A stretch of DNA of 64,000 bases from Arthrobacter sp. EM1 (lineage in GTDB: Bacteria; Actinomycetota; Actinomycetes; Actinomycetales; Micrococcaceae). Position 1 is the first letter of the stretch. Each line of letters starts with the position of its first letter. The stretch spans positions 1,426,001 through 1,490,000 of the forward strand of contig NZ_CP124836.1 of the NCBI RefSeq assembly GCF_029964055.1. Reading direction: 5' to 3'. Of the stretch, positions 9,365 through 44,612 are shown in pieces. The notes beneath the pieces are model-generated. The model saw only the letters and a list, made by a program, of their open reading frames with translations, did no database searches and was not told the origin of the DNA. A program made the translations under genes and the position numbers.

Positions 9365-9410
9365 TGAGGTGTACTACTGATGTGAGACACAGTTTGAAAG
9401 GATTGTGCCC

Positions 9411-9701
9411 ATGTCTTCCCGTCCTACCTATTCCGATGAGTTCAAGGCCGATGCCGTGAATCTTGTCATTTCCTCCGGCCGTTCGCCCGCCTCAGTTGCC
9501 CCCGAGTTAGGGATTTCCGTGACCGCCCTGAAGCGCTGGGTGCAGCTGCATCGGGAAGGAGAGTCCGGCACCGGCGTCAGGCCGGATGATCCGGTTGATC
9601 CCGCGAAATACAAGGCGTTGGAGGCCCGGTTGCGGGAGCTGGAAAGGGAAAATGATTTCCTGAAAAAAGTGTCGGCGTTCTTCGCCAAAGAACAACGGTA
9701 G
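9411..9701 (+). CDS. IS3-A OrfA (DNA-binding subunit)
   Basis: 96 residues from ATG 9411 (M-S-S-R-P-T-Y-S-D-E-F), with an IS3 OrfA helix-turn-helix (S-P-A-S-V-A-P-E-L-G-I-S-V-T-A-L-K-R-W-V) and a C-terminal leucine-zipper-like stretch (L-E-A-R-L-R-E-L-E-R-E-N-D-F-L-K-K). A run of six A at 9663-9668 near its end is a plausible -1 ribosomal slip site. Shifting there gives an open path into OrfB, the usual way IS3 elements make the OrfAB transposase. Confidence 0.9.
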   Translation: MSSRPTYSDEFKADAVNLVISSGRSPASVAPELGISVTALKRWVQLHREGESGTGVRPDDPVDPAKYKALEARLRELERENDFLKKVSAFFAKEQR

Positions 9702-10294
9702 AGGACCTCTACCGGCTTGTTCAGGAGAAGAACGCCGAATTCCCGGTGGCCTGGATGTGCGTCCGGCTGGGCGTTCCACGGGCCTCGTACTACCGGTGGC
9801 TGGAGCAGAAGGAATCAGCGACGTCTGCCCGGCACCGGGAGCTGACCGGACTGGTGAAGGCGATGTTCGATTCCTCGGACGGGATCTTCGGCCACCGGAT
9901 GGTCCACACCAAACTCGCCGCCACGGGCGTGGAGGTTTCCGTGGGCACGGTCGCTGCCATCATGGCCGAGAACGGCTGGGCGGCCAAGCGGATGCGCGCG
10001 TTCAAACGCACGACCATCCCCTCGGACCCGGACAAGGTCTTCGTGGACCTCATCGGCCGGGACTTCACCTCGGAGGTCCCCGGCACGAAGCTCGTCGGGG
10101 ACATCACCTACCTGCGTACCGGAGAGGGCTGGCTCTACCTGGCCACCGTCATCGACCTCTGCACCCGCATGGTCGTTGGCTGGGCCATGGCCGATCATAT
10201 GCGCGCCTCCCTCGTCACGGACGCGCTGAAAATGGCCAGGGACCGCGGACACCTGGCCCCGGATGCCATTTTCCACAGCGATCGCGGCACGCAA
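9663..10294 (+). pseudogene. IS3-A OrfB transposase, 5' part (split by IS30-A)
   Basis: From the slip site, the -1 frame reads through T-V-E-D-L-Y-R-L-V-Q-E-K-N-A and the HTH_21-like region to the integrase core (L-V-G-D-I-T-Y-L, first catalytic Asp). It breaks inside H-S-D-R-G-T-Q, next to the second catalytic Asp, where IS30-A is inserted. The remainder is at 11746-12045. Confidence 0.9.
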
Positions 10295-11745
10295 GGCGTA
10301 TTCAACCGATCGAAGCAACACCTGATCACGGAGGTGTTGGATGTCGGTTCGAAGTCGTCAGAAGGAGGTACGGGCGTATCGGGGGCATATCCCTTCGCCG
10401 GGTCGGCCGTCAGTGGCTTGGCGCGAGGACCGGGTACGGTTCTGGGTCGCGATCGCCTCCGGTGCGAAGACCAGGGACGCCGGCGTCGCGGCGGGCGTGT
10501 CAGAACCAGTGGCGCATCGCTGGTTCCTGCACGCTGGCGGTGTGAATCCTCAGCTGGCCCCGACACTGTCCGGGCGGTATCTGTCCTCAAGTGACCGCGA
10601 GGACATCGCGTTGTGGCGTGCGCAGGACTGCGGGGTGCGGGAGATAGCTCGCCGCCTGGGCCGAAGCCCATCGACGATCTCGCGGGAGCTGCGCCGGAAC
10701 GCGTCGACGAGAACGTATCGGTTGGACTACAAGGCGTCGACAGCGCAGTGGCACGCCGAACGACGAGCCCGCCGTCCCAAGACCGCGAAGCTGATCACGA
10801 ACGGCGGCCTCCGCGAGTACGTTAACGACAAGCTCAGCGGACACGTCAGATCGGTCGATGGGGATCAACTCGGCCCGGTCGGTCCGGTCTGGGACGGGAA
10901 GAACAAGCCCCATCGGGAGGACCGCGAATGGGTGAGGGGCTGGAGTCCCCAACAAATCGCGAAACGCCTGCCTATCGAGTTCCCGGATGATCCAACGATG
11001 CGGATCTCGCACGAAGCAATCTATCAAGCCCTTTACGTTCCAAACCGAGGCGGACTCACAAGGCAGCAGGCGTGGCACCTGCGCCGAGGGCGCACCAAAC
11101 GCACACCACGAGCGCGAACACGACAGCAGGCCTGGGCGCACGTCACCGACGCCACAACCTTGAAGAAGAGACCCTCCGAAGCCGACGGTCGGAAAGTCGC
11201 AGGCCACTGGGAGGGAGATCTCATCATTGGTCTCAACCGGTCAGCGATCGCGACTCTGATCGACCGCACGACACGTTTCGCCATGCTCGTCCATCTGCCC
11301 CGACAGAAGGGTTACGGACTGGTCAAGCCAACAAAGAATGGGCCCGCATTGGCTGGCTACGGGGCGGTCTCGATGAAGAACGCACTCGTCCGGACCTTCG
11401 AGCCACTCCCGGCAAACCTACGCCGCTCCCTGACCTGGGACCGCGGGAAGGAGATGTCCGCGCACGCCACTCTGACCCAGGAAATCGGATTGTCGGTCTA
11501 CTTTGCCGACGCGAAGAGCCCGTGGCAGCGCGGGAGCAACGAACATCTCAATGGGCTACTCCGGCAGTACTTCCCGAAAGGCACCGACATCTCCCGCTGG
11601 AGCATGCCAGAGATCCAAGCTGTTGCCGACATCATCAACAACCGGCCGCGCGGCGTCCTAGGATGGCGCACCCCAGCGGAAGCCTTCGCGGACCAGCTAA
11701 AGTCAGTTCCAATAGCAACTGTTGCTTCGATCGGTTGAATACGCC
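10295..11745 (+). mobile_element. IS30-A copy 1 (IS30 family), intact
   Basis: 1451 bp with perfect 26-bp terminal inverted repeats (GGCGTATTCAACC... at 10295; its reverse complement ends at 11745) and a 3-bp target duplication CAA (10292-10294, 11746-11748). It disrupts OrfB of IS3-A. Its IS110 target site (about 11204-11221) is empty, in contrast to copy 2. Confidence 0.95.
10341..11738 (+). CDS. IS30-A transposase
   Basis: 465 residues. There is an N-terminal HTH region, a second HTH near residues 85-115 (V-R-E-I-A-R-R-L-G-R-S-P-S-T-I-S-R-E-L), and then the DDE core: G-H-W-E-G-D-L-I (Asp293), S-L-T-W-D-R-G-K-E-M, and S-P-W-Q-R-G-S-N-E-H-L-N-G (Glu). Length and motif order fit an active IS30 transposase, which inserts through a circular intermediate, often near inverted-repeat-like sequences. 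All catalytic residues are present. Confidence 0.95.
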   Translation: MSVRSRQKEVRAYRGHIPSPGRPSVAWREDRVRFWVAIASGAKTRDAGVAAGVSEPVAHRWFLHAGGVNPQLAPTLSGRYLSSSDREDIALWRAQDCGVREIARRLGRSPSTISRELRRNASTRTYRLDYKASTAQWHAERRARRPKTAKLITNGGLREYVNDKLSGHVRSVDGDQLGPVGPVWDGKNKPHREDREWVRGWSPQQIAKRLPIEFPDDPTMRISHEAIYQALYVPNRGGLTRQQAWHLRRGRTKRTPRARTRQQAWAHVTDATTLKKRPSEADGRKVAGHWEGDLIIGLNRSAIATLIDRTTRFAMLVHLPRQKGYGLVKPTKNGPALAGYGAVSMKNALVRTFEPLPANLRRSLTWDRGKEMSAHATLTQEIGLSVYFADAKSPWQRGSNEHLNGLLRQYFPKGTDISRWSMPEIQAVADIINNRPRGVLGWRTPAEAFADQLKSVPIATVASIG

Positions 11746-12045
11746 CAATACACCTCCCGGGAAATGGGCGCCTGGTGCACCGGTAACGGCGTCCGGCAGT
11801 CCATGGGTGCCACCGGGGTGTGCTGGGATAACGCGGTCGCCGAGTCGGCGTTCTCATCCCTGAAGAACGAGTTCTACCACCACCAGAGCTTCGCCACCCG
11901 CCAAGACGCCCGCCGGGCGACCATGCGCTACATCGAGGTGTTCTATAACCGCTGGCGACCCCACACCCACAACGACGGCCTGCCGCCGGCCACAGCAATG
12001 GCCAACGTCAAAACCCAAAACCAGCCGCTAACCGCGGCCGCCTAA
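11746..12045 (+). pseudogene. IS3-A OrfB transposase, 3' part
   Basis: Continues OrfB after IS30-A: Q-Y-T-S-R-E-M-G, then D-N-A-V-A-E-S-A-F-S-S-L-K-N-E (third catalytic residue, Glu) and Y-N-R-W-R-P-H, ending at TAA 12043-12045. The catalytic residues are now divided between two fragments. Confidence 0.9.
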
Positions 12046-14002: not shown

Positions 14003-14453
14003 TCATTGCAACAGGAGGTTTTCGATCAGTTCGATCGGTTTCTTGAACTCTAGTCTTTTGCGTGGTCGGTCGTTGAGTTCCTGGGCAACCCAGTCGAGGT
14101 CTGCGGGGCTGTGGATGCTCAGGTCGGTGCCCTTGGGGAAATATTGGCGCAGCAGGCCGTTGGTGTTTTCGTTGATGCCGCGCTGCCAGGGCGAGTGTGG
14201 GTCGCAGAAGTAGATGTCGAGGCCGGTGTCGATCTTCACGGTTTTCCAGCCCTGCATCTCGATGCCTTGGTCCCAGGTCAGGGAATGCCGCAGCGACTCG
14301 GGGAGTGTCTTGATCTTCGCTGCCAGGGCGTCACGCATCTGTTCTGCTTTATAGCCATCCGGAAGATGAACGAGCATCGTGTAATTAGTGGTCCGCTCGA
14401 CCAGCGTTCCAATCGCGGACTGATTCCCTTTGCCGATGATGAGATCGCCCTCC
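14003..14453 (-). pseudogene. IS30-B transposase, 3' part
   Basis: From G-D-L-I-I-G-K-G-N-Q-S-A to the end (P-I-E-L-I-E-N-L-L-L-Q, TGA at 14003-14005). It contains the first Asp, S-L-T-W-D-Q-G-I-E-M and the third-residue motif Q-R-G-I-N-E-N-T-N-G. The 5' part is at 15913-16634. Confidence 0.9.
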
Positions 14454-14468
14454 TTACGATTTTGTTGT

Positions 14469-14628
14469 GGGTGATTTCGGAGCTGTCGTAGTGTTTGGAT
14501 CACCCTCGGGTGGCGGGTATGGCCCAGATCTCCCTGCCGCTTGGACGGCTCACTGGGAATGGCCGCCCGCTGCCCGCCGATGACTCGACCGCTGATTGAG
14601 ACTTACGACATTGATCGTTGGGTAAGGA
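14469..14628 (+). ncRNA. predicted bridge RNA of IS110 (copy 1)
   Basis: 5' stem: GGGTGAT (14469-75) with ATCACCC (14499-505). Target loop: outer stem 14508-14517/14566-14575 (10 pairs including two G-U) and GGCC/GGCC (14521-24, 14561-64), enclosing guide AGATCTCCCT (14526-35), a GCCG/CGGC hairpin (14536-39, 14546-49) and guide CACTGGGA (14551-58). The guides match IS30-A: AGATCTCCCT is identical to the left target strand and CACTGGGA is the reverse complement of TCCCAGTG on the right. Donor loop: ATTGAGA (14595-601) equals the element's right end (15905-911), a hairpin ACGA/TCGT (14605-608, 14615-618), and GTAAGGA (14622-628) is the reverse complement of its left end TCCTTAC. Bridge RNAs of IS110 transposases are established; this instance is read from sequence, with no expression data. 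Confidence 0.85.
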
Positions 14629-14690
14629 CGTGCCGGCGTGGTTATCGACAGGGACCAACAAATTGGAGCTGATCGAAGGGACCGAAAGAC

Positions 14691-15863
14691 ATGCCGGACG
14701 TGTGGGCAGGAATCGACTCGGGCAAGAGCGCCCATCATTGCGTTGTGATCGATCAGTCCGGGACGGTGCTGCTGTCGAGACGGGTTGAGAATGACGAAAC
14801 CGCGCTGCTCGAGCTCATCGCCGCGGTCGCGGAGAGCGCGGCCGGTGGTGAGATCTGCTGGGCTACGGATCTAAACGCCGGCGGCGCAGCGCTCCTGATA
14901 GAGCTGCTGGCAGCACACGCTCAGCACCTGCTCTATATCCCTGGGCGGATCGTGCATCACGCCGCAGCGACGTATCGTGGGGATGGAAAGACCGACGCGA
15001 AAGATGCCAGGATCATCGCGGATCAGGCACGCATGCGCACCGACCTGCAACCCGTTCGCAGTGCGGACCAGATCAGTGTGGACCTGCGGATGCTCACTGC
15101 CCGCCGCACCGATTTGGTCTGTGACCGTGTCCGGGCGATCAACCGGCTCCGGGCCACCTTGTTGGAATACTTCCCCGCACTCGAGCGGGCCTTCGACTAC
15201 TCCAAGAAGGCTCCTCTGACCCTTCTGAGCGGCTACCAGACCCCTGAGGGTATCCGCCGGATGGGACTGGCCCGACTCGCCGGATGGCTCAGGAAACGCG
15301 GCTGTCGGAATAGCGCCAAGATGGCTGAAAAAGCCGTAGCCGCCGCGAATGCCCAGTCCACCGTCCTGCGAGCCCAGTCCATGGGCTCGGCCCTCGTGGT
15401 CCGGCTGGCCGAGCAGATCCACGCAACCGATGTAGAGATCGCCGATGTTGATGCCCAGATCACGGATCTCTTCGGGCAGCACGACAGCGCCGATGTTTTG
15501 CTGAGTATGCCAGGATTCGGACCTGTACTCGCCGCAACCTTTCTCGCGAACATCGGCGGCAACCTGGACGGATTCGACTCTGTAGACCGGCTCGCCAGCG
15601 TCGCCGGCCTGGCTCCGGTCCCACGTGATTCGGGACGGATCAGCGGAAACTTGCACCGGCCGCGCCGCTTCAACCGCAGACTCCTCCGAACCTGTTACCT
15701 CGCCGCGCTCTCAAGCCTGAAAAACAGCCCCGCCTCCAGAACCTACTACGACCGGAAACGCGACGAGGGAAAGTCCCACAAACAGGCGCTCATCGCACTC
15801 GCCCGACGCCGCATCAACGTCATCTGGGCCATGCTCCGCGACCACACCGAATACCGTGAGTGA
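14691..15863 (+). CDS. IS110-family transposase (DEDD recombinase)
   Basis: 390 residues. N-terminal RuvC-like domain with Asp9 (G-I-D-S-G-K), an acidic residue at Glu54 or Asp60, and the pair Asp102/Asp105 (G-K-T-D-A-K-D-A-R). A coiled-coil region follows, then the C-terminal domain with S-M-P-G-F-G-P-V and S-V-A-G-L-A-P-V-P-R-D-S-G-R, whose Ser315 is the likely nucleophile. Full length for the family, with all catalytic elements present. It acts with the bridge RNA in the leader upstream to join the element ends to the target without terminal repeats. Confidence 0.95.
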   Translation: MPDVWAGIDSGKSAHHCVVIDQSGTVLLSRRVENDETALLELIAAVAESAAGGEICWATDLNAGGAALLIELLAAHAQHLLYIPGRIVHHAAATYRGDGKTDAKDARIIADQARMRTDLQPVRSADQISVDLRMLTARRTDLVCDRVRAINRLRATLLEYFPALERAFDYSKKAPLTLLSGYQTPEGIRRMGLARLAGWLRKRGCRNSAKMAEKAVAAANAQSTVLRAQSMGSALVVRLAEQIHATDVEIADVDAQITDLFGQHDSADVLLSMPGFGPVLAATFLANIGGNLDGFDSVDRLASVAGLAPVPRDSGRISGNLHRPRRFNRRLLRTCYLAALSSLKNSPASRTYYDRKRDEGKSHKQALIALARRRINVIWAMLRDHTEYRE

Positions 15864-15912
15864 GACGGCCCCCACCATTTGCGTCCAGGCTGCTTGACAA
15901 CAGCATTGAGAT

Positions 15913-16634
15913 TCCCAATGCCCGGGCACGGCCCGGTCCTGAACTTCGGGGGGACGCTCGGAGATATTGATCATTCCGGGGATCCGGTTCTTCCGCTGGC
16001 CGGCCTTGCGGCAGGGCTGCCTGATAGCCCGCCCGGTGCGCAGGCACGCGGTCAGATCGCGCTTCAGCGCCCCGCGGGACTGGAGGTAAAGGGACTGGTA
16101 GATCGTCTCGGGTGACACCCTCATCTCCGGCTCATCGGGGAACCCAACCCGGAGTCGTCCTGCGATCTGCTCGGGTGAGTACTTCTTTTTCAGGTCATCT
16201 TCCACCTTCGCACGCAGCACGGTGTTCGTGTGCAGTTTCGCTGGTTTCGGACGCGAGGCCCGCTCATAGGCCAGTGCGTGCGCTGAGGTCCCCCGGTAGG
16301 GCATTCCTGCCACCGAGTTGCGCCGCAACTCCCTGGAAACCGTGGAGGCCGCTCTGCCGACCACGGCTCCGATCTGCCGCAGAGATTGCCCCTGGGCGCG
16401 CAGTATTGCGATCTCCTCGCGCTGGGCGAAGGTCAGGCACCTGCCCTTCAGATCACGGCCCCGCCGGGGCCTGACACCACCGGCCTCGGCCAAGACCCTA
16501 CGCCCGGTACGCCGGCTCGTATTGATCGGAACCACGGCATCGGTGATGAAATCACCCGCCTGCATCCCGGCCCAAAAAACCTGCAAGAGATCAGGCCTCA
16601 AATGAATTGAATACCCCGCCATAACAACACCCAT
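15913..16634 (-). pseudogene. IS30-B transposase, 5' part
   Basis: From ATG 16634 (M-G-V-V-M-A-G-Y-S-I-H-L-R) through the HTH (L-R-Q-I-G-A-V-V-G-R-A-A-S-T-V-S-R-E-L) to V-P-G-H-W, where IS110 interrupts it just before the first catalytic Asp. Compared with the 30675 copy it has a small local difference (A-I-R-Q-P instead of A-V-M-Q-P). Confidence 0.9.
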
Positions 16635-30674: not shown

Positions 30675-31396
30675 ATGGGTGTTGTTATGGCGGGGTATTC
30701 AATTCATTTGAGGCCTGATCTCTTGCAGGTTTTTTGGGCCGGGATGCAGGCGGGTGATTTCATCACCGATGCCGTGGTTCCGATCAATACGAGCCGGCGT
30801 ACCGGGCGTAGGGTCTTGGCCGAGGCCGGTGGTGTCAGGCCCCGGCGGGGCCGTGATCTGAAGGGCCGTTGCCTGACCTTCGCCCAGCGCGAGGAGATCG
30901 CAATACTGCGCGCCCAGGGACAATCTCTGCGGCAGATCGGAGCCGTGGTCGGCAGAGCGGCCTCCACGGTTTCCAGGGAGTTGCGGCGCAACTCGGTGGC
31001 AGGAATGCCCTACCGGGGGACCTCAGCGCACGCACTGGCCTATGAGCGGGCCTCGCGTCCGAAACCAGCGAAACTGCACACGAACACCGTGCTGCGTGCG
31101 AAGGTGGAAGATGACCTGAAAAAGAAGTACTCACCCGAGCAGATCGCAGGACGACTCCGGGTTGGGTTCCCCGATGAGCCGGAGATGAGGGTGTCACCCG
31201 AGACGATCTACCAGTCCCTTTACCTCCAGTCCCGCGGGGCGCTGAAGCGCGATCTGACCGCGTGTCTACGCACCGGGCGGGCGGTCATGCAGCCCTGCAG
31301 GAAGGCCGGCCAGCGGAAGAACCGGATCCCCGGAATGATCAACATTTCCGAACGTCCCCCCGAAGTTCAGGACCGGGCCGTGCCCGGGCATTGGGA
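30675..31396 (+). pseudogene. IS30-B transposase, 5' part
   Basis: From ATG 30675 to P-G-H-W-E, interrupted in the Glu241 codon by IS110 copy 2, two codons before Asp243. Continues at 32856. Confidence 0.9.
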
Positions 31397-32618
31397 ATCT
31401 CAATGCTGTTGTCAAGCAGCCTGGACGCAAATGGTGGGGGCCGTCTCGCTCACGGTATTCGGTGTGGTCGCGGAGCATGGCCCAGATGACGTTGATGCGG
31501 CGTCGGGCGAGTGCGATGAGCGCCTGTTTGTGGGACTTTCCCTCGTCGCGTTTCCGGTCGTAGTAGGTTCTGGAGGCGGGGCTGTTTTTCAGGCTTGAGA
31601 GCGCGGCGAGGTAACAGGTTCGGAGGAGTCTGCGGTTGAAGCGGCGCGGCCGGTGCAAGTTTCCGCTGATCCGTCCCGAATCACGTGGGACCGGAGCCAG
31701 GCCGGCGACGCTGGCGAGCCGGTCTACAGAGTCGAATCCGTCCAGGTTGCCGCCGATGTTCGCGAGAAAGGTTGCGGCGAGTACAGGTCCGAATCCTGGC
31801 ATACTCAGCAAAACATCGGCGCTGTCGTGCTGCCCGAAGAGATCCGTGATCTGGGCATCAACATCGGCGATCTCTACATCGGTTGCGTGGATCTGCTCGG
31901 CCAGCCGGACCACGAGGGCCGAGCCCATGGACTGGGCTCGCAGGACGGTGGACTGGGCATTCGCGGCGGCTACGGCTTTTTCAGCCATCTTGGCGCTATT
32001 CCGACAGCCGCGTTTCCTGAGCCATCCGGCGAGTCGGGCCAGTCCCATCCGGCGGATACCCTCAGGGGTCTGGTAGCCGCTCAGAAGGGTCAGAGGAGCC
32101 TTCTTGGAGTAGTCGAAGGCCCGCTCGAGTGCGGGGAAGTATTCCAACAAGGTGGCCCGGAGCCGGTTGATCGCCCGGACACGGTCACAGACCAAATCGG
32201 TGCGGCGGGCAGTGAGCATCCGCAGGTCCACACTGATCTGGTCCGCACTGCGAACGGGTTGCAGGTCGGTGCGCATGCGTGCCTGATCCGCGATGATCCT
32301 GGCATCTTTCGCGTCGGTCTTTCCATCCCCACGATACGTCGCTGCGGCGTGATGCACGATCCGCCCAGGGATATAGAGCAGGTGCTGAGCGTGTGCTGCC
32401 AGCAGCTCTATCAGGAGCGCTGCGCCGCCGGCGTTTAGATCCGTAGCCCAGCAGATCTCACCACCGGCCGCGCTCTCCGCGACCGCGGCGATGAGCTCGA
32501 GCAGCGCGGTTTCGTCATTCTCAACCCGTCTCGACAGCAGCACCGTCCCGGACTGATCGATCACAACGCAATGATGGGCGCTCTTGCCCGAGTCGATTCC
32601 TGCCCACACGTCCGGCAT
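31266..32618 (-). CDS. IS110 transposase (copy 2), stop codon lost
   Basis: Same protein as at 14691-15863, but the TGA has become CGA (31446-31448). The frame therefore runs 60 codons further, across the element end into antisense IS30-B sequence, giving 450 residues instead of 390. All catalytic residues (Asp9, Asp102, Asp105, Ser315) are kept. Whether the C-terminal extension harms activity is unknown; the extra part follows the intact Ser domain. Confidence 0.85.
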   Translation of the reverse strand: MPDVWAGIDSGKSAHHCVVIDQSGTVLLSRRVENDETALLELIAAVAESAAGGEICWATDLNAGGAALLIELLAAHAQHLLYIPGRIVHHAAATYRGDGKTDAKDARIIADQARMRTDLQPVRSADQISVDLRMLTARRTDLVCDRVRAINRLRATLLEYFPALERAFDYSKKAPLTLLSGYQTPEGIRRMGLARLAGWLRKRGCRNSAKMAEKAVAAANAQSTVLRAQSMGSALVVRLAEQIHATDVEIADVDAQITDLFGQHDSADVLLSMPGFGPVLAATFLANIGGNLDGFDSVDRLASVAGLAPVPRDSGRISGNLHRPRRFNRRLLRTCYLAALSSLKNSPASRTYYDRKRDEGKSHKQALIALARRRINVIWAMLRDHTEYRERDGPHHLRPGCLTTALRFPMPGHGPVLNFGGTFGNVDHSGDPVLPLAGLPAGLHDRPPGA

Positions 32619-32858
32619 GTCTTTCGGTCCCTTCGATCAGCTCCAATTTGTTGGTCCCTGTCGATAACCACGCCGGCACGTCCTTACCCAACGATCAATG
32701 TCGTAAGTCTCAATCAGCGGTCGAGTCATCGGCGGGCAGCGGGCGGCCATTCCCAGTGAGCCGTCCAAGCGGCAGGGAGATCTGGGCCATACCCGCCACC
32801 CGAGGGTGATCCAAACACTACGACAGCTCCGAAATCACCCACAACAAAATCGTAAGGA
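31397..32858 (-). mobile_element. IS110 element copy 2, in IS30-B
   Basis: 1462 bp; junctions ...TTGGGA|ATCTCAATGC on the left and AATCGTAA|GGAGGGCGATC on the right, with GGA shared. Same orientation relative to the IS30 gene as copies 1 and 3. Confidence 0.95.
32681..32840 (-). ncRNA. predicted bridge RNA of IS110 (copy 2)
   Basis: Same leader as at 14469-14628, on the minus strand; the guide segments are unchanged. Confidence 0.8.
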
Positions 32859-39763: not shown

Positions 39764-40313
39764 ATGAGCAGACCGCAGCGCACCTCCGATGAGGACTTAC
39801 TCGACCGCATCGAGGCTGCGGTGGTTCGGCGACCTTCGATAATCCCGGGGGGGTCTTCACGATGTTGCTCCGGCCGCTGGCATAGGCCCCGCCGGCCTGA
39901 TCAAGCGGTTTGGCTCGAAAGAGGGTCTACTGCTCGCGCTCACGCGGCGCTGGATCGATCGGGTGCCCGACTCCCGGGTGGGGACCGTCGATGTTTTGAC
40001 CGAGTTGCGTGAGTACGTGGATGGGAACTTTGCCGCGCCCTCATCCGCATCGGCGATCTTCGGCCTTGGGGAGCTTATGCGCGACCTGTGGTCACCCACC
40101 TCGGCGGCGCTGCTACGCGAGGGCTGGGGGAAGCAAGCCCGCTACTTCGCCACCCTCCTGGCCAACGTGCCGCTGCGGAGCGAAATCGATCCTCACGCGG
40201 CTTCGCTGACACTGCTCGACACGCTCCACGGCAGCCTCTACCGTCGGGCCGTGGACTTCAACCCCACGACTCCAACACTTACTCTCAATGCTCTTTTGGA
40301 AGGCTGGACATGA
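39764..40313 (+). pseudogene. TetR-family regulator, frameshifted
   Basis: ATG 39764 gives M-S-R-P-Q-R-T-S-D-E-D-L-L-D-R-I-E-A-A-V-V-R-R. Near the run of seven G at 39849-39855 the frame must change to continue D-V-A-P-A-A-G-I-G-P-A-G-L-I-K-R-F-G-S-K-E-G-L-L, the second HTH helix and following residues, and then the ligand-binding domain to T-L-N-A-L-L-E-G-W-T. One or two bases are lost in the G run. The stop overlaps the next start (ATGA). The DNA-binding domain is therefore broken unless this is a sequencing error in the homopolymer. Confidence 0.75.
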
Positions 40314-40470
40314 ACACCGATCGCACTTGGCAGGGATGCGTGTTCATCGGCACGAGCCTGGACGGCTACATCGCAAGGCCCGACGGCGACCTCGCCTGGC
40401 TCACCGACCCGTCGCCCCGACCACACACCACAGACTTCACCGCCCACCCCGCCCTGGTGTGGGAATCGTT
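40310..40470 (+). pseudogene. RibD/dihydrofolate-reductase-family protein, 3' truncated
   Basis: From ATG 40310: M-N-T-D-R-T-W-Q-G-C-V-F-I-G-T-S-L-D-G-Y-I-A-R-P-D-G-D-L-A-W-L, the N-terminus of RibD C-terminal-domain reductases (NADPH-dependent). Only ~53 residues remain before IS3-A copy 2. The sequence at the far side of the IS (44659 on) does not continue the gene. It was coupled to the TetR gene. Confidence 0.8.
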
Positions 40471-40515
40471 TGAGGTGTGTCAAGGATGTGAGACAGTTGG
40501 TTGGTTTTTTCGGGG

Positions 40516-40815
40516 TTAGGCGGCCGCGGTTAGCGGCTGGTTTTGGGTTTTGACGTTGGCCATTGCTGTGGCCGGCGGCAGGCCGTCGTTGTGGGTGTGG
40601 GGTCGCCAGCGGTTATAGAACACCTCGATGTAGCGCATGGTCGCCCGGCGGGCGTCTTGGCGGGTGGCGAAGCTCTGGTGGCGGTAGAACTCGTTCTTCA
40701 GGGATGAGAACGCCGACTCGGCGACCGCGTTATCCCAGCACACCCCGGTGGCACCCATGGACTGCCGGACGCCGTTACCGGTGCACCAGGCGCCCATTTC
40801 CCGGGAGGTGTATTG
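40516..40815 (-). pseudogene. IS3-A OrfB transposase, 3' part (copy 2)
   Basis: Same C-terminal segment as 11746-12045, ending P-L-T-A-A-A; contains D-N-A-V-A-E-S-A-F-S. Split by IS30-A at the same base as copy 1; one residue differs (F-Y-R-H instead of F-Y-H-H). Confidence 0.9.
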
Positions 40816-40861
40816 GGCGTATTCAACCGATCGAAGCAACACCTGATCACGGAGGTGTTGG

Positions 40862-41733
40862 ATGTCGGTTCGAAGTCGTCAGAAGGAGGTACGGGCGTAT
40901 CGGGGGCATATCCCTTCGCCGGGTCGGCCGTCAGTGGCTTGGCGCGAGGACCGGGTACGGTTCTGGGTCGCGATCGCCTCCGGTGCGAAGACCAGGGACG
41001 CCGGCGTCGCGGCGGGCGTGTCAGAACCAGTGGCGCATCGCTGGTTCCTGCACGCTGGCGGTGTGAATCCTCAGCTGGCCCCGACACTGTCCGGGCGGTA
41101 TCTGTCCTCAAGTGACCGCGAGGACATCGCGTTGTGGCGTGCGCAGGACTGCGGGGTGCGGGAGATAGCTCGCCGCCTGGGCCGAAGCCCATCGACGATC
41201 TCGCGGGAGCTGCGCCGGAACGCGTCGACGAGAACGTATCGGTTGGACTACAAGGCGTCGACAGCGCAGTGGCACGCCGAACGACGAGCCCGCCGTCCCA
41301 AGACCGCGAAGCTGATCACGAACGGCGGCCTCCGCGAGTACGTTAACGACAAGCTCAGCGGACACGTCAGATCGGTCGATGGGGATCAACTCGGCCCGGT
41401 CGGTCCGGTCTGGGACGGGAAGAACAAGCCCCATCGGGAGGACCGCGAATGGGTGAGGGGCTGGAGTCCCCAACAAATCGCGAAACGCCTGCCTATCGAG
41501 TTCCCGGATGATCCAACGATGCGGATCTCGCACGAAGCAATCTATCAAGCCCTTTACGTTCCAAACCGAGGCGGACTCACAAGGCAGCAGGCGTGGCACC
41601 TGCGCCGAGGGCGCACCAAACGCACACCACGAGCGCGAACACGACAGCAGGCCTGGGCGCACGTCACCGACGCCACAACCTTGAAGAAGAGACCCTCCGA
41701 AGCCGACGATCGGAAAGTCGCAGGCCACTGGGA
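40862..41733 (+). pseudogene. IS30-A transposase, 5' part
   Basis: From ATG 40862 to G-H-W-E (Glu291 codon), interrupted by IS110 copy 3 just before Asp293. One substitution from copy 1 (E-A-D-D-R-K instead of E-A-D-G-R-K). The remainder is at 43193-43721. Confidence 0.9.
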
Positions 41734-41782
41734 ATCTCAATGCTGTTGTCAAGCAGCCTGGACGCAAATGGTGGGGGCCGTC

Positions 41783-42955
41783 TCACTCACGGTATTCGGT
41801 GTGGTCGCGGAGCATGGCCCAGATGACGTTGATGCGGCGTCGGGCGAGTGCGATGAGCGCCTGTTTGTGGGACTTTCCCTCGTCGCGTTTCCGGTCGTAG
41901 TAGGTTCTGGAGGCGGGGCTGTTTTTCAGGCTTGAGAGCGCGGCGAGGTAACAGGTTCGGAGGAGTCTGCGGTTGAAGCGGCGCGGCCGGTGCAAGTTTC
42001 CGCTGATCCGTCCCGAATCACGTGGGACCGGAGCCAGGCCGGCGACGCTGGCGAGCCGGTCTACAGAGTCGAATCCGTCCAGGTTGCCGCCGATGTTCGC
42101 GAGAAAGGTTGCGGCGAGTACAGGTCCGAATCCTGGCATACTCAGCAAAACATCGGCGCTGTCGTGCTGCCCGAAGAGATCCGTGATCTGGGCATCAACA
42201 TCGGCGATCTCTACATCGGTTGCGTGGATCTGCTCGGCCAGCCGGACCACGAGGGCCGAGCCCATGGACTGGGCTCGCAGGACGGTGGACTGGGCATTCG
42301 CGGCGGCTACGGCTTTTTCAGCCATCTTGGCGCTATTCCGACAGCCGCGTTTCCTGAGCCATCCGGCGAGTCGGGCCAGTCCCATCCGGCGGATACCCTC
42401 AGGGGTCTGGTAGCCGCTCAGAAGGGTCAGAGGAGCCTTCTTGGAGTAGTCGAAGGCCCGCTCGAGTGCGGGGAAGTATTCCAACAAGGTGGCCCGGAGC
42501 CGGTTGATCGCCCGGACACGGTCACAGACCAAATCGGTGCGGCGGGCAGTGAGCATCCGCAGGTCCACACTGATCTGGTCCGCACTGCGAACGGGTTGCA
42601 GGTCGGTGCGCATGCGTGCCTGATCCGCGATGATCCTGGCATCTTTCGCGTCGGTCTTTCCATCCCCACGATACGTCGCTGCGGCGTGATGCACGATCCG
42701 CCCAGGGATATAGAGCAGGTGCTGAGCGTGTGCTGCCAGCAGCTCTATCAGGAGCGCTGCGCCGCCGGCGTTTAGATCCGTAGCCCAGCAGATCTCACCA
42801 CCGGCCGCGCTCTCCGCGACCGCGGCGATGAGCTCGAGCAGCGCGGTTTCGTCATTCTCAACCCGTCTCGACAGCAGCACCGTCCCGGACTGATCGATCA
42901 CAACGCAATGATGGGCGCTCTTGCCCGAGTCGATTCCTGCCCACACGTCCGGCAT
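41783..42955 (-). CDS. IS110-family transposase (copy 3)
   Basis: 390 residues, same protein as at 14691-15863, with the normal TGA stop (41783-41785) and all catalytic residues (Asp9, Asp102, Asp105, Ser315). Confidence 0.95.
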   Translation of the reverse strand: MPDVWAGIDSGKSAHHCVVIDQSGTVLLSRRVENDETALLELIAAVAESAAGGEICWATDLNAGGAALLIELLAAHAQHLLYIPGRIVHHAAATYRGDGKTDAKDARIIADQARMRTDLQPVRSADQISVDLRMLTARRTDLVCDRVRAINRLRATLLEYFPALERAFDYSKKAPLTLLSGYQTPEGIRRMGLARLAGWLRKRGCRNSAKMAEKAVAAANAQSTVLRAQSMGSALVVRLAEQIHATDVEIADVDAQITDLFGQHDSADVLLSMPGFGPVLAATFLANIGGNLDGFDSVDRLASVAGLAPVPRDSGRISGNLHRPRRFNRRLLRTCYLAALSSLKNSPASRTYYDRKRDEGKSHKQALIALARRRINVIWAMLRDHTEYRE

Positions 42956-43017
42956 GTCTTTCGGTCCCTTCGATCAGCTCCAATTTGTTGGTCCCTGTCG
43001 ATAACCACGCCGGCACG

Positions 43018-43177
43018 TCCTTACCCAACGATCAATGTCGTAAGTCTCAATCAGCGGTCGAGTCATCGGCGGGCAGCGGGCGGCCATTCCCAGTGAGCCG
43101 TCCAAGCGGCAGGGAGATCTGGGCCATACCCGCCACCCGAGGGTGATCCAAACACTACGACAGCTCCGAAATCACCC
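43018..43177 (-). ncRNA. predicted bridge RNA of IS110 (copy 3)
   Basis: Same leader as at 14469-14628, on the minus strand. In this copy the two target guides match the actual flanking sequence without mismatch (10 nt on the left, 8 nt on the right). Confidence 0.85.
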
Positions 43178-43192
43178 ACAACAAAATCGTAA

Positions 43193-43721
43193 GGAGGGAG
43201 ATCTCATCATTGGTCTCAACCGGTCAGCGATCGCGACTCTGATCGACCGCACGACACGTTTCGCCATGCTCGTCCATCTGCCCCGACAGAAGGGTTACGG
43301 ACTGGTCAAGCCAACAAAGAATGGGCCCGCATTGGCTGGCTACGGGGCGGTCTCGATGAAGAACGCACTCGTCCGGACCTTCGAGCCACTCCCGGCAAAC
43401 CTACGCCGCTCCCTGACCTGGGACCGCGGGAAGGAGATGTCCGCGCACGCCACTCTGACCCAGGAAATCGGATTGTCGGTCTACTTTGCCGACGCGAAGA
43501 GCCCGTGGCAGCGCGGGAGCAACGAACATCTCAATGGGCTACTCCGGCAGTACTTCCCGAAAGGCACCGACATCTCCCGCTGGAGCATGCCAGAGATCCA
43601 AGCTGTTGCCGACATCATCAACAACCGGCCGCGCGGCGTCCTAGGATGGCGCACCCCAGCGGAAGCCTTCGCGGACCAGCTAAAGTCAGTCCCAATAGCA
43701 ACTGTTGCTTCGATCGGTTGA
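43193..43721 (+). pseudogene. IS30-A transposase, 3' part
   Basis: G-D-L-I-I-G-L-N-R-S-A-I onward with S-L-T-W-D-R-G-K-E-M and Q-R-G-S-N-E-H-L-N-G, to stop at 43721. Complements 40862-41733. Confidence 0.9.
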
Positions 43722-43728
43722 ATACGCC

Positions 43729-44360
43729 TTGCGTGCCGCGATCGCTGTGGAAGATGGCATCCGGGGCCAGGTGTCCGCGGTCCCTGGCCATTTTCAGCGC
43801 GTCCGTGACGAGGGAGGCGCGCATATGGTCGGCCGTGGCCCAGCCAACGACCATGCGGGTGCAGAGGTCGATGACGGTGGCCAGGTAGAGCCAGCCCTCT
43901 CCGGTACGCAGGTAGGTGATGTCCCCGACGAGCTTCGTGCCGGGGACCTCCGAGGTGAAGTCCCGGCCGATGAGGTCCGCGAAGACCTTGTCCGGGTCCG
44001 AGGGGATGGTCGTGCGTTTGAACGCGCGCATCCGCTTGGCCGCCCAGCCGTTCTCGGCCATGATGGCAGCGACCGTGCCCACGGAAACCTCCACGCCCGT
44101 GGCGGCGAGTTTGGTGTGGACCATCCGGTGGCCGAAGATCCCGTCCGAGGAATCGAACATCGCCTTCACCAGTCCGGTCAGCTCCCGGTGCCGGGCAGAC
44201 GTCGGTGATTCCTTCTGCTCCAGCCACCGGTAGTACGAGGCCCGTGGAACGCCCAGCCGGACGCACATCCAGGCCACCGGGAATTCGGCGTTCTTCTCCT
44301 GAACAAGCCGGTAGAGGTCCTCTACCGTTGTTCTTTGGCGAAGAACGCCGACACTTTTTT
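43729..44360 (-). pseudogene. IS3-A OrfB transposase, 5' part (copy 2)
   Basis: Equivalent of 9663-10294 on the minus strand, with a few substitutions (for example V-F-A-D instead of V-F-V-D and A-T-A-D instead of A-M-A-D). Ends at H-S-D-R-G-T-Q where IS30-A is inserted. Confidence 0.9.
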
Positions 44361-44612
44361 CAGGAAATCATTTTCCCTTTCCAGCTCCCGCAACCGGGCC
44401 TCCAACGCCTTGTATTTCGCGGGATCAACCGGATCATCCGGCCTGACGCCGGTGCCGGACTCTCCTTCCCGGTGCAGCTGCACCCAGCGCTTCAGGGCGG
44501 TCACGGAAATCCCTAACTCGGGGGCAACTGAGGCGGGCGAACGGCCGGAGGAAATGACAAGATTCACGGCATCGGCCTTGAACTCATCGGAATAGGTAGG
44601 ACGGGAAGACAT
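44322..44612 (-). CDS. IS3-A OrfA (copy 2)
   Basis: 96 residues, same protein as at 9411-9701, intact, start ATG 44612. Confidence 0.9.
   Translation of the reverse strand: MSSRPTYSDEFKADAVNLVISSGRSPASVAPELGISVTALKRWVQLHREGESGTGVRPDDPVDPAKYKALEARLRELERENDFLKKVSAFFAKEQR

Follow-up and report, generated by a model that had tools for sequence, protein, structure and literature searches.

The window analyzed here, a 64,000-nt stretch of the Arthrobacter sp. EM1 genome, carries an IS110 element inserted in a transposase gene of a type we call IS30-B, leaving two gene pieces that both score above the cutoff of the NCBIfam IS30 model (Table 1). Its recombinase matches PF01548 (160.9 bits) and PF02371 (68.5 bits), and scores 238.2 bits against NF033542, the NCBIfam model for the IS110 family RNA-guided transposase, where the cutoff is 140. 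Similarity to the solved IS621 and ISCro4 proteins is weak, and the serine region aligns with that of ISCro4. The element has several of the features by which the IS110 group is recognized: a recombinase with a DEDD N-terminal domain and a C-terminal Transposase_20 domain that includes the conserved serine region, a long non-coding left end and a short right end (238 nt, 14453-14690, versus 49 nt, 15864-15912), a short core at both junctions (TC at both element ends and in the empty site), and a left end predicted, from covariation and from both sets of guides, to form a two-loop structured RNA with target and donor guides. The IS1111 group carries its RNA region downstream of the recombinase gene, an arrangement that we do not see in this element, with its 49-nt right end and its guides upstream. 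Within the 64-kb window no Rfam family was matched at gathering scores, and no relatives of the element were found among the viral contigs scanned.

Table 1. Features of the IS110 element, its IS30 hosts and its predicted bridge RNA (positions in the window)
Feature	Position	Strand	Description	Basis
IS110 element	14451..15914	+	core TC to core TC, 1464 nt; antisense in IS30-B-type transposase gene	other copies and empty IS30-A site
Left core dinucleotide TC	14451..14452	.	common to empty site and to left and right junctions	
IS110 recombinase, 390 aa	14691..15863	+	PF01548, PF02371; NCBIfam IS110 family RNA-guided transposase	
Target-binding stem-loop of predicted bridge RNA	14507..14576	+	12-pair stem, GGCC/GGCC, inner GCCG/CGGC hairpin	fold; covariation in 42 leaders
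Left target guide AGATCTCCCT	14526..14535	+	identical to left side of IS30-A site through first core base	
Right target guide CACTGGGA	14551..14558	+	reverse complement of TC-CCAGTG	
Donor-binding stem-loop of predicted bridge RNA	14579..14646	+	helices 3-5 of covariation analysis	
Left donor guide ATTGAGA	14595..14601	+	matches element right end ATTGAGAT-TC (15905-15914)	
Right donor guide GTAAGGA	14622..14628	+	reverse complement of left end TC-CTTAC (14451-14457)	
Right end with TTGACA	15892..15914	+	circle joining would create a promoter-like pair, TTGACA-N17-TACGAT, with 4 of 6 letters fitting at -10	
C-terminal part of interrupted IS30-B transposase gene	14003..14450	-	NF033563; corresponds to IS30-A residues 291-453	
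N-terminal part of interrupted IS30-B transposase gene	15915..16634	-	NF033563; corresponds to IS30-A residues 24-296	
Intact IS30-A gene	10341-11738	+	holds empty target site	
Empty target site in intact IS30-A	11205..11221	-	codons of GHWEGD	
Second IS110 copy	31395..32858	-	in IS30-B-type gene	
Third IS110 copy	41732..43195	-	in IS30-A-type gene; identical to copy at 14451	

The leader of the element contains a target-binding loop that the original prediction had described from the letters alone, with one guide at 14526-35 and another at 14551-58 placed around a GCCG/CGGC hairpin and enclosed by GGCC/GGCC, and each of these parts is present at its position. The hairpin pairs 14536-39 with 14546-49 and the closure pairs 14521-24 with 14561-64, while the stem beneath them, given there as 10 pairs, is 12 pairs long (14507-18/14565-76). 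The guides had further been said to match the element's actual insertion site in IS30-A. Both do match exactly the site in the intact IS30-A gene, which reads AGATCTCCC-TC-CCAGTG (minus strand, 11205-11221), but this copy has inserted elsewhere: the copy at 14451-15914 sits in the IS30-B type, at AGATCGCCC-TC-CCAATG, which has two mismatches, one on each side. A filled IS30-A copy (41732-43195) reads AGATCTCCC-TC-element-TC-CCAGTG, and since the IS30-A site can be seen both empty and filled, the core must be TC, unlike the CT core of IS621. Both core bases fall within the right guide and the first alone within the left guide, where the second is a misfit (TG where TC would fit). In IS30-A the core falls on the codon of E291, within the GHWEGD motif, and D293, which follows E291 in the motif, is presumably the catalytic aspartate that opens the IS30 DDE triad. 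Throughout the 3.89-Mb genome the 17-nt site occurs once exactly, in IS30-A, at two places with two mismatches, one of them an uninterrupted IS30-B, and at eight with three.

A donor loop, absent from the first description, is also found in the leader, so that both loops of a predicted bridge RNA are present. In 65 of the 66 eligible loci among relatives, the right donor guide equals the element's left end at all 7 letters compared, in five variants, using a search pattern that presupposes the last letters GGA; the sole locus without a donor guide, L051, has a leader that is broken off. Donor guides track the left ends where these have changed, to TCCATAC, TCCCTAC, TCCTTAT or TCCTTAA. IS110 elements have been reported to use a promoter formed at the circle junction (PMC11208160). 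When the ends are joined in silico, a TTGAC box appears in 46/46 loci with both ends, and the -10 hexamers, each taken at whichever of three spacings suits best, fit only 3-4 of 6 letters, a count made without a control.

Folded alone, the window RNA has an energy no better than that of its shuffles (z of -0.77 and -1.52), and support for the structure thus comes from covariation in the alignment. The consensus structure from 42 distinct leaders has 30 pairs, and 96.5% of the cells preserve them. Two-sided changes are seen in 14 of the 30 pairs and in 101 cells, compared with a shuffle average of 36.7 cells, and none of 500 shuffles reached either value. Structures slid along the alignment yield 2-7 pairs and 6-14 cells with two-sided changes, a comparison that favors the consensus structure by construction, as it was derived from the same alignment. 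Absence of covariation was one of two results that the original prediction had named as counting against it, and the stems do covary across homologues.

We suggest, with a probability of roughly 0.93, that this IS110 element uses a bridge RNA from its left end to guide its recombinase into the GHWEGD codons of IS30 transposase genes, and that it belongs to a lineage with this one target. By extension from IS621 and its relatives, the left end likely encodes the bridge RNA, perhaps transcribed from a promoter that arises at circle closure, and this RNA would bind the recombinase and direct strand exchange. The circular form would then enter GHWEGD codons of IS30-family transposase genes, giving antisense copies and a split gene. 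The target codons are presumably kept by selection on the active site of IS30, and in that case the site would be expected in most IS30 genes, drifting mainly at synonymous positions. Most left-guide mismatches do fall where such drift is expected: across 25 loci, 37 of the 53 are on the 3 third-codon positions of 10, and a misaligned row, L013, contributes 3 of the 16 outside third positions. For the right guide (20 loci, leaving out L019, L023, L027, L064 and L082), 15 mismatches were counted, 8 of them in the third letter of the histidine codon and 6 at the last of the positions compared.

IS30-type guides are found at 30 loci, made up of 22 genome loci, two plasmids, the four copies in this genome, its own older relative (L151) and L115. 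The loci were drawn by similarity to the window element, and target and descent are consequently partly confounded among them. In 28 of the 30, antisense IS30 beginning at residue 291 makes up the left flank; these include L015, whose alignment starts at 305 despite first codons that read GDLIVG. The two exceptions are L010, which lies at a contig end and has 11 readable codons that still begin GDLIIG, and L082, where the alignment runs past the boundary. On the right, the flank is IS30 in 24 loci, ending at about the same residue; in L019 the right IS30 piece is 1.4 kb off because the right end has been lost. Of the six right-flank exceptions, L082 reaches a contig end, the L115 locus is too short, and the element in L151 is apparently interrupted; in the other three (L023, L027 and L064) the left flank is IS30 and no IS30 was found at the right junction. 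In L023 (4226) and L064 (4219) the right end is followed by TCCTTA, which is like an element left end and not like IS30, and which is possibly a junction product or a later rearrangement. In L027 (4230) and L128 (about 3725), extra bases lie between the right core and an IS30-like CAATG (TCCGACTTCAATG).

The recombinases with IS30-type guides also group together. In a midpoint-rooted tree, for which L027, L066 and L128 were too short, 23 of them make up one side of a 100/100 branch, which reads as a clade given the midpoint root. They come from eight actinobacterial families: Micrococcaceae, Microbacteriaceae, Nocardiaceae, Mycobacteriaceae, Pseudonocardiaceae, Propionibacteriaceae, Kineosporiaceae and Acidimicrobiaceae. 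A pattern for the main site matched 10 of 394 genomes. IS110 was present there in three (our own, G195 and G336), with IS30 as the left flank in all three, and the other seven had neither IS110 nor IS30 at the match. The original prediction had named homologues carrying the same guides at unrelated sites as the other observation that would count against it, and among the 30 loci we found none. Comparing guides with the flanks of other insertions, as it had proposed, shows that guides vary with targets.

Whether guides follow targets can be asked more broadly among relatives, for which we took related loci from bacterial genomes, keeping the best 80 out of 126, together with our own copies. Two of the 80 fetched loci (L030 and L062, which are without an N-terminus) were left out, and with the four own copies 82 loci went to the parser. 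Guide anchors allowed 73 of these to be parsed (unparsed: L013, L018, L044, L049, L055, L063, L069, L073 and L084). A usable left target was available for 64, a right target for 53 and both for 46, or 44 pairs once duplicates were removed; no right end was found in L019, L028, L029, L038, L039, L043, L045, L047, L048, L050-L052, L056, L067, L068, L070, L077, L079, L082 and L087. Across the 44 nonredundant pairs, the left guide at its best offset fits its own target at 7.5/10 positions versus 5.7/10 for the targets of other elements, and the right guide, with the core not counted, at 4.9/6 versus 2.4/6. None of 20,000 permutations gave a summed fit as high, a result that we take as a strong sign and not as an exact probability, because related elements are not independent. 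Outside the main IS30 group, 24 pairs behave likewise (left 7.1 versus 5.5, right 4.9 versus 1.9), and over 19 distinct right-guide hexamers guides and targets change together, save for the single-locus hexamers of L023 and L027.

These comparisons bear on the idea that the recombinase protein itself, and not an RNA, reads the IS30 site, with the matches in the leader being relics of target or donor. Such an idea draws on the RNA guide being so far a prediction from sequence, and on guides and sites being much alike inside the IS30 group, which means that this group alone cannot separate protein from RNA recognition. In the wider set of relatives the guides change with their targets from hexamer to hexamer (again save L023 and L027), sit in covarying stems and, in the donor loop, keep pace with the four changed left ends listed above, while IS621 requires its RNA in vitro, as described in PMC11208160. 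We therefore reject protein-only targeting, which the covariation of guides with both targets and ends makes very improbable.

The copies within this genome speak to the origin of the fixed site. There are four, differing by 0, 1 or 2 of 1464 nt and each in a separate IS30 host, with target sites that can be summarized as AGATCKCCC-TC-CCARTG. Three hosts are of the IS30-B type, 1.3-2.5% apart (pairwise differences of 16/1222, 28/1111 and 25/1119), and one is of another IS30 type. It is conceivable that IS110 entered IS30 once, long ago, and was inherited and copied along with it, so that the fixed site reflects descent, and the three copies in the same IS30-B type would suit such a history, as two of them have both outer ends in common and the third is cut short at one side. 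However, the IS110 copies are near identical within hosts that have diverged, and a single ancestral insertion is contradicted unless every IS110 copy underwent gene conversion. Identical IS110 proteins occur in IS30 hosts that are 55% identical in this genome and, for another two, 58% identical in Haloechinothrix, and two empty sites are left in the genome, both within uninterrupted IS30 genes. Over 105 pairs of 15 loci, with L010 and L015 excluded because their host pieces are shorter than 60 aa, no correlation is seen between the identities of IS110 and of host (rho -0.10), and the host is less similar than the IS110 in 103 pairs. Shared descent is even harder to credit than protein recognition, and on these sequence comparisons the insertions at one codon in divergent IS30 genes are separate events. 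Least credible of all is chance, by which short guides (about 16 nt together) would happen to match something in abundant IS30 genes, given left flanks that begin at the same codon in the same orientation in 28 of 30 loci, a genome with one exact and only two 2-mismatch sites, and IS30 matches in 0 of the 48 parsed loci outside the IS30 guide group and L057.

Entry of an RNA-programmed element into IS30 transposase genes, as originally proposed, is hence strongly supported by the IS30 flanks, the covariation and the way guides follow targets, RNA programming being the part that we infer. The accompanying picture of one mobile element hosted by another also stands, as IS110 copies split IS30 genes at a fixed codon. 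The nesting may extend further. Pieces matching NF033516 indicate that the intact IS30-A splits an IS3-family transposase gene (window 9405-12045), and a second IS30-A copy (window 40000-44500) has the same flanking sequence in opposite orientation, which suggests three levels of nesting for the IS110 copy at 41732-43195 (IS3, IS30, IS110). The fifth, older IS110 relative of this genome (L151, 1430-8500) lies in another IS30 and is apparently interrupted by several kb of other DNA.

IS621 and its kin in the IS110 group use bridge RNAs (Durrant et al. 2024, PMC11208160), and by its sequence features this element appears to work in the same manner. It shares with that group the DEDD and serine recombinase, the long left end with a two-loop RNA (here predicted), split target and donor guides and a short core. 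Where that group has a promoter at the circle junction, the joined ends of this element give a promoter-like pair with a -10 that fits at 4 of 6 letters. It differs from IS621 in its core and in its target, a coding motif of IS30 transposases where IS621 is described as targeting REP elements (PMC11208160). IS900, of the same family, has the target motif CATGNNNNNNTCTCCTT (PMC8141618), and several sister elements lie at the same kind of ribosome-binding-site/start-codon site. The IS30 group differs from IS900 in both guides and target, and the targets of our four own copies are not of the IS900 type. A preference of IS110-type elements for other mobile elements is already known from IS4321/IS5075, which target Tn21-family terminal repeats according to a reference title in PMC11187229, so what is new here is the target. 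Those elements are of the IS1111 group, with the RNA downstream of the gene and a terminal repeat as target (PMC11187229), in contrast to the catalytic-motif codons seen here. ISKpn4 (integron attC) and ISPa11 (REP) are guided by a seekRNA and, like our element with its predicted guide RNA, use repeated, dispersed sites; their targets, unlike transposase codons, are described in PMC11187229 as potentially folded structures. In a Kocuria rhizophila paper, the passages that describe an IS110 element next to IS30 elements draw no link between them (PMC12500396). We found no published report of IS110 elements targeting IS30 genes in the literature searched, whose coverage leaves subscription journals largely outside. 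As far as these searches reach, a lineage fixed on the codons of a conserved, presumably catalytic GHWEGD motif of another IS family is new, while the chemistry appears to be of the known IS110 kind.

IS30 may also have been targeted a second time. L057 (2749-4194), from a distant IS110 branch, has different guides, which fit its flanks at 9/10 positions on the left and 4/6 on the right. On the left it abuts antisense IS30 that starts at residue 402 of IS30-A, next to E401, the presumed catalytic glutamate, in NEHLNGLLRQYF. The right flank has 10 nt to the contig end, so that any sign of IS30 on this side is limited to the fit of these letters. L057 is possibly a second, independent IS30 targeter. 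Among the best 15 of 1895 plasmid records found with its protein, the two nearest had no IS30 match, and a site-plus-end pattern found 18 places in 17 of 396 genomes, with no IS110 or IS30 match in the stretches examined; with no second case in these searches, L057 stays a single case.

A broader interpretation would cast the lineage as hyperparasites of IS30, whose guides read catalytic-motif codons, tolerate synonymous drift and silence IS30, with L057 having independently acquired guides for another motif. Catalytic codons would then be a recurrent safe harbor for such elements and their insertions a natural brake on IS30, a scenario that we hold tentatively, at a little under even odds. 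Each insertion does split its IS30 gene; we infer that the element could curb IS30 in living cells. If the proposed mechanism is true, the lineage would occupy a stable host-within-host niche, found across eight actinobacterial families and with its target held constant by what the protein of another mobile family must do, in which the cell's own genes are spared and a competitor is damaged. The natural guide-target pairs with synonymous mismatches would be a data set on the mismatch positions tolerated by an IS110 recombinase, and the group offers matched changes in donor guides and in target guides. Whether RNA-guided elements keep other transposons from spreading also becomes a testable question.

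The sister lineages have sites of more than one kind. Several sister elements lie between a purine-rich stretch and an opposite-strand ATG (for example L034, L036, L054, L078, L081 and L085), and others of the 24 sister sites inspected are unlike this type. The sites of L033-L036, L040, L054, L078, L081 and L085 resemble ribosome-binding sites with start codons on the opposite strand, as reported for IS900. L038, L039, L068, L070, L052 and L055 have no right end within about 250 nt of the stop and have shared downstream sequence, and may carry passenger DNA. In one Kibdelosporangium genome there are six copies (L032-L037), whose recombinases are identical.
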